DNA of 38,168 nt from Pseudomonadota bacterium (lineage in GTDB: Bacteria; Pseudomonadota; Alphaproteobacteria; GCA-2731375). Numbering within the stretch: the stretch's first letter is position 1; every line of letters starts with the position of its first letter. The notes beneath the pieces were generated by a model. It made no database searches, was not told where the DNA came from, and saw only the letters and a program-made list of their open reading frames with translations. Made by a program: the position numbers and the translations under genes. This document shows positions 439-36,126 of the stretch, in pieces. The DNA lies in assembly GCA_027623205.1 (NCBI GenBank), contig JAQBYC010000036.1, positions 1 to 38,168 of the forward strand, written 5' to 3'.

Positions 439-560
439 TACCGTGGTGAAGGCCGGCGACCCGTCCCGACTCAGCGATGCGGGATCATCCTGCGGCCGAC
501 CCTAAATTAGCTGAATTGTTAATAGGAACAGAACGCCCCGAAAGGCATCTGATTTGCCCG

Positions 561-664
561 GAGCAGTTTTCAATTTATTGGAGGCGCGAAGGCAAAATAA
601 GTGATTGGTTCAACGGCTCTACCTATTAAAGGCGCCGGGCATATTTGGATCAAATGGGCTCTAG
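561..664 (+). repeat. Dispersed ~100-bp intergenic repeat, copy 1 (degenerate)
   Basis: This segment begins GAGCAGTTTTCAATT, contains TGATTGGTTCAA, GGCTCTA and ATTAAAGG, and ends GGGCTCTAG, in the same order as the better copies at 2209, 27109 and 35821. It is clearly more diverged, and its terminal hairpin has decayed. The last bases, CTAG at 661-664, overlap the gcrA stop codon (TAG on the minus strand, 661-663), as in copy 2 with the DadA-like gene. Alignment was by eye. Confidence 0.65.
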
Positions 665-1077
665 GCTGAGCGTTTGCGATTGGCGTTTTTGGCTTTTGGC
701 GGCTGGTAGGCCATGGCTGCATGGTAGTCGCAATATGGCGCACCTACCTTGCTGTTCGCACCGCAAAAATGAAAACCCAGGTCACCGGGGTCGCCAATCG
801 GCCAGCGGCAGGTTGACGCCGTCAATGAAAATATGGTTGCGCCCTGATCTATCGGAGGTTGCAATTGCAAGACCTTCTCGGCGCGTTCTATTTGCCGCTG
901 CTGCCGCGTCACCGACGATTTCGACGGTTTGGAAAGGCCCAACCGGTTGGCTTTGCCGATCACGGCGTTTCGGGTGATCCCTTCATCCAAACGCTCCGCA
1001 ATTTGCCGGGCGGAATAGCCTTCCTGCCAAAGTCTCGATAGTTGTGTAACACGTTCGTCTGTCCAGTCTACGGCCAT
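661..1077 (-). CDS. gcrA: GcrA cell cycle regulator
   Basis: GcrA is an alphaproteobacterial transcription factor that binds sigma70-RNA polymerase and acts at promoters carrying CcrM-methylated GANTC sites. The N-terminus WTDERVTQLSRLWQEGYSARQIAERL, followed by ITRNAVIGKANRLGLS, is the conserved helix-turn-helix domain. The C-terminus carries CRWPIGDP, FHFCG and PYCDYH, the cysteine/histidine-rich end typical of the family. The length (138 aa) is slightly short of the usual range. I chose the ATG at 1077 because it gives the family-like start MAVDWTDERV and has a G-rich site (GGGGGCG) just upstream. The ATG at 1101 would place that site inside the gene. The stop codon lies in the end of repeat copy 1. 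The upstream region carries a DnaA-box array. Confidence 0.93.
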   Translation of the reverse strand: MAVDWTDERVTQLSRLWQEGYSARQIAERLDEGITRNAVIGKANRLGLSKPSKSSVTRQQRQIERAEKVLQLQPPIDQGATIFSLTASTCRWPIGDPGDLGFHFCGANSKVGAPYCDYHAAMAYQPPKAKNANRKRSA

Positions 1078-1158
1078 GTCACGCCCCCACAGCAAATTCA
1101 ACTGTTGTCGTTTTACCGAGGTCTATTGTAGCGATGCTTGGCGGTCAAAACAATATAT

Positions 1159-1188
1159 AATGTAGGTACAAAATAGGAACTATACCAA
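1159..1188 (-). promoter_or_regulatory. Candidate gcrA promoter
   Basis: On the minus strand TTGGTA (1183-1188) and TACATT (1159-1164) are separated by 18 bp and resemble sigma70 -35 and -10 elements, in a markedly AT-rich stretch. Transcription would start near 1150, giving a leader of about 70 nt before the gcrA ATG. A perfect DnaA box begins 5 bp upstream of the -35 element. The elements match only partly and other registers are possible. Confidence 0.35.
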
Positions 1189-1190
1189 AT

Positions 1191-1226
1191 CCTGTGGATA
1201 ACCTTGTGGTTCATCTTGTGGAGATC
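1191..1226 (-). promoter_or_regulatory. Three 12-bp units with DnaA-box-like TGTGG cores upstream of gcrA
   Basis: TGTGG occurs at 1193, 1205 and 1217, exactly 12 bp apart, as three consecutive units (1191-1202, 1203-1214, 1215-1226). The first reads TGTGGATAA, the complement of the perfect DnaA box TTATCCACA. The other two share the TGTGG core but match the box less well. In Caulobacter DnaA is known to promote gcrA transcription, so an activator site is a natural reading. The array lies between the hydrolase stop (1246) and the candidate gcrA -35 element. Confidence 0.6.
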
Positions 1227-1245: not shown

Positions 1246-2199
1246 TCAACGCAGTTGCGTGAGGAAATTCAACACTCTATCCAGATGCCAGTGGCGATTG
1301 CGCTTGGTGTGAAAGCCGACATGGCCACCCCATCGAGAAATTTCAGGAAACAGCCATGAATTGCGGCCCCAGGGATAGTCGCAATAGGGCGCCACTGGGA
1401 CGATGGGGTCATCTTGTGCATGCAGCAGCAGTGTCGGCACCTTGATTTGTGCCAAATATCCCAGCGCTTGGCAATTCGCCCAGTAGTCGCACGCATCGCG
1501 ATAGCCATTGCGCGGCGCGACGAAATCATTATCCAGATCGACAAAGTTTCGCGCTGCTACGATGGCGGCCCGCTCGCGCCCATCGAGGGCAGCGCCCGGG
1601 GCCAAACATTCACGGCAAAAATCCCGTAACAATTTTCTGTTATAGAGGACATTCCGCGCCCGTAACATGTTGGCGGCGGTCACCGCCAGATCGATTGGGG
1701 CCGAGATGCTGGCGACCGCCCGAATGGATAATTCAGCGCCATATTCAGCCGCGAATTTCAGGCTCATATTGCCGGCCAGGGAAAAACCTACGACAACCAC
1801 GCCCTGGGCGACAGCGGCTGTCGGCAACGCCAAAATCGCGTCGTGCAGATCCTGGCTGCGCCCGGCATGGGATTGCAGGGCGCAGGTTGGCCGCGAGGGG
1901 CCGGCGCCGCGTAGATTCAGACGCAGGACGCTAAATCCCTGTTGCAGAAAATACCGCGCACTTACGGTGATATAGCTGCTGCCCTCGCATCCGGCCAGAC
2001 CATGGATCAGGATCACCAATGGCTTGACGGCATCGTCACCGGCATTGTACAGGGCCCAAAGGCGGTCGCCACTGCCGTCCGCCATGGCCATTTGCAGACG
2101 CTCGCCCGGCAGCGGCCGGGGCGCCTTGATCAAGGAATTGCGCAGCGTCTGCAAATCTCCGCCCCACCAGGGCGGGCGCTGCCGGAAGGCCCCAGGCAA
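1246..2199 (-). CDS. YheT-like alpha/beta-fold hydrolase
   Basis: This is a predicted serine hydrolase of the YheT/EMB8 group, whose substrates are mostly unknown (small esters or lipids). The family-typical N-terminus PPWWGGDLQTL is followed by an oxyanion segment (VILIHGLAG) and the nucleophile elbow GFSLAGN with the catalytic Ser. An Asp is in LLLHAQDDPIVP and the C-terminal His in WGGHVGF, which completes a triad. The start is uncertain. The frame stays open to a TTG at 2262, but the 21 residues before Leu-22 are encoded largely by repeat copy 2. I give a TTG at 2199, which puts the start 14 codons before the conserved DLQT. Neither start has a convincing ribosome binding site. It is transcribed away from repeat copy 2 and toward gcrA. 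Confidence 0.8.
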   Translation of the reverse strand: MPGAFRQRPPWWGGDLQTLRNSLIKAPRPLPGERLQMAMADGSGDRLWALYNAGDDAVKPLVILIHGLAGCEGSSYITVSARYFLQQGFSVLRLNLRGAGPSRPTCALQSHAGRSQDLHDAILALPTAAVAQGVVVVGFSLAGNMSLKFAAEYGAELSIRAVASISAPIDLAVTAANMLRARNVLYNRKLLRDFCRECLAPGAALDGRERAAIVAARNFVDLDNDFVAPRNGYRDACDYWANCQALGYLAQIKVPTLLLHAQDDPIVPVAPYCDYPWGRNSWLFPEISRWGGHVGFHTKRNRHWHLDRVLNFLTQLR

Positions 2200-2208
2200 A
2201 TCCGTACT

Positions 2209-2313
2209 GGAGCAATTTTCAGTTAATTGAGGTCGCGCTCGTGACTTAAGTAATTGGTTCAATTGCTCTAATCTTTAAGGAGTCCGAGCATGTTTTTGGG
2301 AAACATGCTCTAG
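2209..2313 (+). repeat. Dispersed ~100-bp intergenic repeat, copy 2
   Basis: This is a well-preserved copy. The first module (2210-2269) runs from GAGCAATTTTCAGTTAATT to TAATTGGTTCAATTGCTC, bounded by the inverted repeat GAGCAATT/AATTGCTC. The second module is a perfect 10-bp hairpin, GAGCATGTTT at 2286-2295 with AAACATGCTC at 2301-2310 and a 5-nt loop. The terminal CTAG (2310-2313) provides the TAG stop of the DadA-like gene. The other side is read as the false N-terminus of the hydrolase. A GAGTC (GANTC, the CcrM methylation motif) lies at 2280-2284. Confidence 0.85.
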
Positions 2314-3590: not shown

Positions 3591-3977
3591 CTAGTTGGTG
3601 GAAGTGGATGAACTGGTCGATGTCGAAGTGGAGGTCGACGTTGACGTTGACGTCGCCGTTGTCGTGGTGGTGCTGACCGAACTGACGGAACCGTCAGCGC
3701 GGACTTGTAGCTCGTAGGTCAAGGCGTCGTTAGCCAGCGAAAGCGCCGCGGCCAGGCCGGCAAGGCCCACGGCGCCTTTGACCAATTGGCCGGCAGGGCC
3801 GTCCCAGTGCTTTTTGGCTTCCGTCTGCAACGCCTCAATCGATTGCATGGGACTGCCCGTGCCGGTCTGGGCGCCATTCTGGGATTGTGCAATAGCCGTT
3901 GACAAATAGGCCGGGGACAGACTTGCGAACACGGCAAATAGGACCAGACCGACAGCCATGCGGGCGATCGATCTCAT
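3591..3977 (-). CDS. Small secreted protein with Ser/Thr-rich C-terminal tail, 128 aa
   Basis: The N-terminus (MRSIARMAVGLVLFAVFASL...STAIAQ) is a signal peptide with likely cleavage after AIAQ near residue 31. A short middle region (MQSIEALQTEAKKHWDGPAGQLVKGAVGLAGLAAALSLANDAL) has an amphipathic then glycine/alanine-rich helix that may touch the membrane. The last ~27 residues are almost only Ser and Thr, largely alternating. The codons in this tail vary (TCA, TCG, TCC, AGT; ACG, ACC, ACT, ACA), which suggests the protein sequence is kept rather than recent DNA slippage. The ATG overlaps the rhodanese stop as ATGA, so the two are translationally coupled. I do not recognise the family; an exported accessory factor is an inference from context. 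Confidence 0.75.
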   Translation of the reverse strand: MRSIARMAVGLVLFAVFASLSPAYLSTAIAQSQNGAQTGTGSPMQSIEALQTEAKKHWDGPAGQLVKGAVGLAGLAAALSLANDALTYELQVRADGSVSSVSTTTTTATSTSTSTSTSTSTSSSTSTN

Positions 3978-27108: not shown

Positions 27109-27210
27109 AGAGCAATTTTCAATTAAACGGAGCAATTCTCGCGACTTAAGTAATTGGTTCAATTGCTCTATCCTTAAAGAGCCTGAGCATGTTTCAAGGC
27201 AACATGCTCT
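27109..27210 (+). repeat. Dispersed ~100-bp intergenic repeat, copy 3
   Basis: The copy has AGAGCAATT at 27109-27117 and its perfect inverted partner AATTGCTCT at 27161-27169, with an internal CTTAAGTAATTGGTT. The second module is the hairpin GAGCATGTT (27185-27193) and AACATGCTC (27201-27209). The minus-strand parC gene ends inside it, so the final residues SMLP and the TGA stop (27194-27196) are repeat-encoded. On the other side it gives the false TTG start of the ligase. Confidence 0.85.
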
Positions 27211-35820: not shown

Positions 35821-35923
35821 GGAGCAATTTTCAATTAACCGGAGTCGCTCTCGCGACTTAAGTTATTGGTTCAATTGCTCTAACCTTAATGAGTCCGAGC
35901 ATGTTTTAAGGCAACATGCTCCA
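35821..35923 (+). repeat. Dispersed ~100-bp intergenic repeat, copy 4
   Basis: This is a well-preserved copy with GAGCAATTTTCAATTAACC at its start, TTCAATTGCTC closing the first module and the hairpin GAGCATGTT (35897-35905) with AACATGCTC (35913-35921). It ends CATGCTCCAG. Two GAGTC (GANTC) sites lie at 35842-35846 and 35891-35895. Unlike the other three copies, no gene ends at its right edge. The gap between it and motA is 280 bp. Confidence 0.85.
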
Positions 35924-36126
35924 GACAATGAATTTTAGAGTGATTACTCGAAAAAGGCATGGGAATTGCGTTGGTAACGGCCCCTGATCGAAAAAAGATT
36001 TGTCACGGTCGTTTCAAACACCATCACGTCATTTCGGATCATCTGCGGAAAGTTGGCAACAAGACAGCCGGCAACGGCACTTACAGGCGTCAGACTAACG
36101 CTATCTTAACCTTATCTCGCCAGCAT

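Follow-up and report, generated by a model that had tools for sequence, protein, structure and literature searches.

In Caulobacter, DnaA activates gcrA from a promoter reported to carry a single DnaA box, and DnaA-ADP has been proposed as maybe the better activator (PMC3193534). DnaA boxes likewise precede other cell-cycle genes in this organism, with up to six upstream of hdaA, two upstream of ftsZ, and one upstream of mipZ (PMC3193534). When DnaA motifs were surveyed earlier across the class, none at gcrA proved taxonomically conserved (PMC2877005). The statement in the sequence-only reading of the present locus that DnaA promotes gcrA expression in Caulobacter thus agrees with the published record (PMC3193534).

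Herein, the window (i.e., the whole stretch of DNA analysed, 38,168 nucleotides) encodes the 138-aa cell-cycle regulator GcrA on the minus strand (661..1077; PF07750, E 2.4e-37), with 97% identity to the GcrA of its nearest named record, the MAG "Alphaproteobacteria bacterium isolate OFTM58." The gene upstream, also on the minus strand, encodes an alpha/beta hydrolase (1246..2262; PF00561), the start codon of which is uncertain. Between them, TGTGG recurs at 1193-1197, 1205-1209, and 1217-1221, with a spacing of exactly 12 bp; because gcrA runs on the minus strand from an ATG at 1077, this array lies 116-148 bp upstream of the gene, with the hydrolase stop (1246) just beyond. One copy of a ~105-bp interspersed repeat directly follows the gcrA stop; the four copies in the window (560-646, 2209-2315, 27110-27210, and 35821-35925) are ~72-86% alike, and further copies are found on other contigs of the genome. 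Elsewhere in the window, a small ORF (3591-3977) ends in a long Ser/Thr repeat tail.

Read on the minus strand, the array region is GATCTCCACAAGATGAACCACAAGGTTATCCACAGGAT, containing three CCACA cores 12 bp apart, the last of which belongs to a perfect DnaA box. This box (box 1, 1193..1201, minus strand; predicted centre ~-79) reads TGTGGATAA in the window and TTATCCACA on the gcrA strand, confirming the original report of a TGTGG triple at 1193, 1205, and 1217 with exact 12-bp spacing and one perfect DnaA box upstream of gcrA. Box 2 (TGAACCACA; 1205..1213, minus strand; predicted centre ~-91) and box 3 (ATCTCCACA, within RGATYTCCACA; 1217..1225, minus strand; predicted centre ~-103) are weak DnaA-like boxes with two mismatches each, neither of which would count as a DnaA site alone. 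Taken together, the set comprises a strong box and same-orientation weak boxes at a close fixed period, as in the cooperative arrays of the oriC type. The array had also been described as helical; whereas the 12-bp spacing stands, 12 bp is not an integral helical turn, and the array is therefore better described as tandem 9-mers with 3-bp gaps.

Chance accounts poorly for this arrangement. The perfect box pattern TTATNCACA occurs once in the 38-kb window, at 1193-1201 (0.43 expected), and the triple pattern with up to two mismatches, expected 0.09 times per window, was observed once, with zero mismatches. From the density of TGTGG, the exact triple would be expected ~2e-5 times per window and 0.0025 times per genome (5.02 Mb). 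A terminator or RNA element was ruled out as a reading of the array, given that no terminator-like site was detected there and that folding did not exceed that of shuffled sequences (z 0.18).

Alignment across relatives, as had been proposed for checking the motifs, recovered all three units at exact spacing in 10 congeners and the sister genus. In the genus and its sister genus, whose genomes are mostly draft assemblies, all 12 genomes readable at this site, that of the window included, carry the array without indels. Searches located gcrA in nine congeners and one sister-genus genome, every one of which has the array; in the tenth congener (G007) the array is present but gcrA itself was not found, the contig ending just past the array. 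The refuting condition named with the original observation, a lack of conservation in close relatives, is thus not borne out. In 11 aligned genomes, 18 of the 19 columns of the array core are invariant, versus 48 of 149 other intergenic columns (Fisher p 1.3e-7). Box 1 keeps all nine bases in these genomes, and is also unchanged in the more distant genus of G012, while the weak boxes keep mainly their CCACA; for box 2 this core is found in 11 of 12 genomes (TCACA in G006 being the sole exception), and for box 3 it is invariant, as is a GAT immediately upstream of it. Strong and weak DnaA sites would be expected to differ in this way, if these boxes do serve as such.

The same alignments bear on the gcrA promoter. 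The sequence-only reading had placed a -35 element (TTTGGT/TTGGTA) 5 bp from the perfect box; this sequence is not conserved, with many relatives carrying TTTAGT or ATATAGT, and that assignment is therefore rejected in favour of the conserved pair TTGTTT-N17-TACAAT (1153-1125, minus strand). Its -35 (1148..1153, minus strand) is conserved with the 17-bp spacer in L001-L011 and varies to TTGCCG in L012 and TTGTTC in L013, while its -10 (1125..1130, minus strand) predicts a transcription start near 1118. A generic promoter scan made no call at this pair because the -35 is weak. Overlapping the -35 is a conserved block, ACATTATATATTG (1151..1163, minus strand); the 13-base block ACATTATNTATTG (window 1151-1163) was found once each in G000, G005, and G012 (two genera), only at the gcrA promoter.

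Box and promoter are held at a nearly constant distance. From box 1 start to -35 start, the interval is 48 bp in nine of 11 close genomes and 47 bp in the other two. A box 48 bp ahead of a TTG...-N17 promoter recurs in two genera of the family that are more distant, represented by G012 and G013, which extends the conserved position to four genera; the box of G013 is imperfect (AAATCCACA), and neither genome has the three-box array. These two genomes have different 5' leaders, with 123 bp (G012) and 32 bp (G013) between -10 and ATG, compared to 46-48 bp in close genomes. DnaA itself is single-copy in the genus and bears the usual DNA-binding signature GRDHTT in domain IV, i.e., it is a canonical DnaA. 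Of the link to DnaA suggested at the outset, the sequence type, the box-promoter geometry, and the nature of DnaA thus fit, whereas the adjacent -35 does not. CcrM is the partner of GcrA elsewhere, and a CcrM-type protein (RAMA domain) is encoded in the genome; CcrM control at the site was rejected, as the 420 bp preceding gcrA in the window's genome contain no GANTC.

The reading that we consider probable is that DnaA binds all three motifs as one array and, by doing so cooperatively, activates the gcrA promoter. DnaA would first bind the perfect box (1193-1201), then extend head to tail, cooperatively, onto the weak boxes, which lie 12 and 24 bp further upstream. The resulting short DnaA oligomer, at ~-75 to -107, would activate the weak sigma-70-type promoter, with gcrA transcription thereby following DnaA amount and nucleotide state. 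From these sequence features we infer DnaA binding, cooperativity, and activation alike, and they point to the array being a real switch from DNA replication to the cell cycle. We advance more tentatively, and with doubt outweighing conviction, the further suggestion that a cooperative filament of DnaA spans all three sites, so that GcrA synthesis would sense the DnaA-ATP level steeply; this would set it apart from the single-box promoter of Caulobacter, where DnaA-ADP is the form proposed to activate better.

An opposite sign of regulation is unlikely but is the best-surviving alternative, wherein DnaA bound to the array acts as a repressor of gcrA, or chiefly lowers its expression at high DnaA-ATP. 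DnaA is an activator or a repressor in different bacteria (PMC8203912), and sequence does not fix the sign; however, the array ends ~40 bp upstream of the -35, leaving the core promoter free, and this upstream position together with the weak -35 would favour activation. Direct evidence for activation of gcrA by DnaA exists in Caulobacter only (PMC3193534), and it is by analogy that the same sign would be expected here.

Highly improbable is a function in DnaA bookkeeping, with the array serving as a store of DnaA or as a site of DnaA-ATP/ADP conversion that lies beside gcrA by chance. Multi-box arrays are indeed the usual look of such datA/DARS-like sites, and two other places in the genome carry similar conserved arrays, but titration needs no fixed box-promoter distance such as that held across four genera. 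Pattern searches of the genome found triple YCACA arrays to be rare, few of them recurring in relatives. The first of the two other arrays (locus L136; G000:C71:6117-6157) comprises four CCACA units of exact 12-bp period, the boxes being of the TTACCCACA type; it is flanked on one side by a metallo-beta-lactamase-fold gene and on the other by a 171-aa ORF that matches no Pfam family. Both the genus and its sister genus conserve it, with relatives carrying three-unit versions. The second (locus L168; G000:C209:24378-24403) is a three-unit CACA array of 11-bp period with a reversed GTGGATAA, situated in a block of non-coding sequence that is strongly conserved, looks like an origin, and is a candidate for the replication origin. 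The gap upstream of hemE was rejected as an origin, having no box cluster in G010 and, in the genome that includes the window, one perfect box. For 200 kb around gcrA in the relative G005, GC skew is mostly positive, with no clear switch at gcrA.

OmpR/PhoB-type response regulators use direct repeats of about one helical turn, and the CCACA repeats could by that token be sites for such a factor with a coincidental DnaA-box match, but this is highly improbable given the invariance of all nine DnaA consensus bases at one unit and the presence of TTATCCACA at other DNA-metabolism promoters in the genome. By pattern search, TTATNCACA is found 46 times in the genome, versus 27 for a reversed control pattern, and 12 of 25 TTATCCACA sites are intergenic according to a simple ORF caller. 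It thus behaves as a regulatory motif, with sites upstream of likely nrdJ and lexA, among others. Two perfect boxes (L149:2131 and 2299) precede a probable ribonucleotide reductase gene, and an inverted pair of perfect boxes (L150:4492-4510) precedes a probable lexA, both genes being named from sequence inspection.

The probable control of gcrA by DnaA can also be viewed against the class as a whole. A perfect TTATNCACA lies within 400 bp upstream of gcrA at 10 of 98 other alphaproteobacterial loci, versus 11 of 761 control slices (p 2.9e-5); none of these 98 gcrA loci carries the 12-bp three-box array, which was rejected as a class-wide feature. As boxes are enriched but the array is not shared, and no class-wide motif was reported (PMC2877005), the DnaA-gcrA link therefore seems to recur across the class with changing architecture. 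Against that earlier negative result, the present locus provides a strictly conserved multi-box DnaA motif at gcrA in one family far from Caulobacter. It also makes testable which quantity (total DnaA, DnaA-ATP, or DnaA-ADP) sets the timing of GcrA synthesis, and whether the response of gcrA to DnaA owes its steepness to the number of boxes.

Ultimately, the known systems differ from this locus in distinct ways. In the literature collection searched, no paper dealt with DnaA boxes arranged head to tail at 12 bp. The low-affinity DnaA arrays of E. coli oriC share a strong box with close, fixed-spaced weak boxes allowing cooperative oligomers, but have 2-bp gaps between weak sites (PMC6727663) as opposed to 3 bp here, and are located at an origin instead of a promoter. 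The hdaA, ftsZ, and mipZ promoters of Caulobacter resemble it in having DnaA boxes upstream of cell-cycle genes, yet differ in box number and target. With the gcrA promoter of Caulobacter crescentus, it has in common a DnaA box upstream of gcrA in a genome encoding DnaA and a CcrM-type RAMA protein; there, however, a single box is reported, compared to a strong box joined in 12-bp tandem by two weak ones here. The DnaA-gcrA link is thus already known from Caulobacter, and the three-box, 12-bp architecture would be a further, differently built version of that link.
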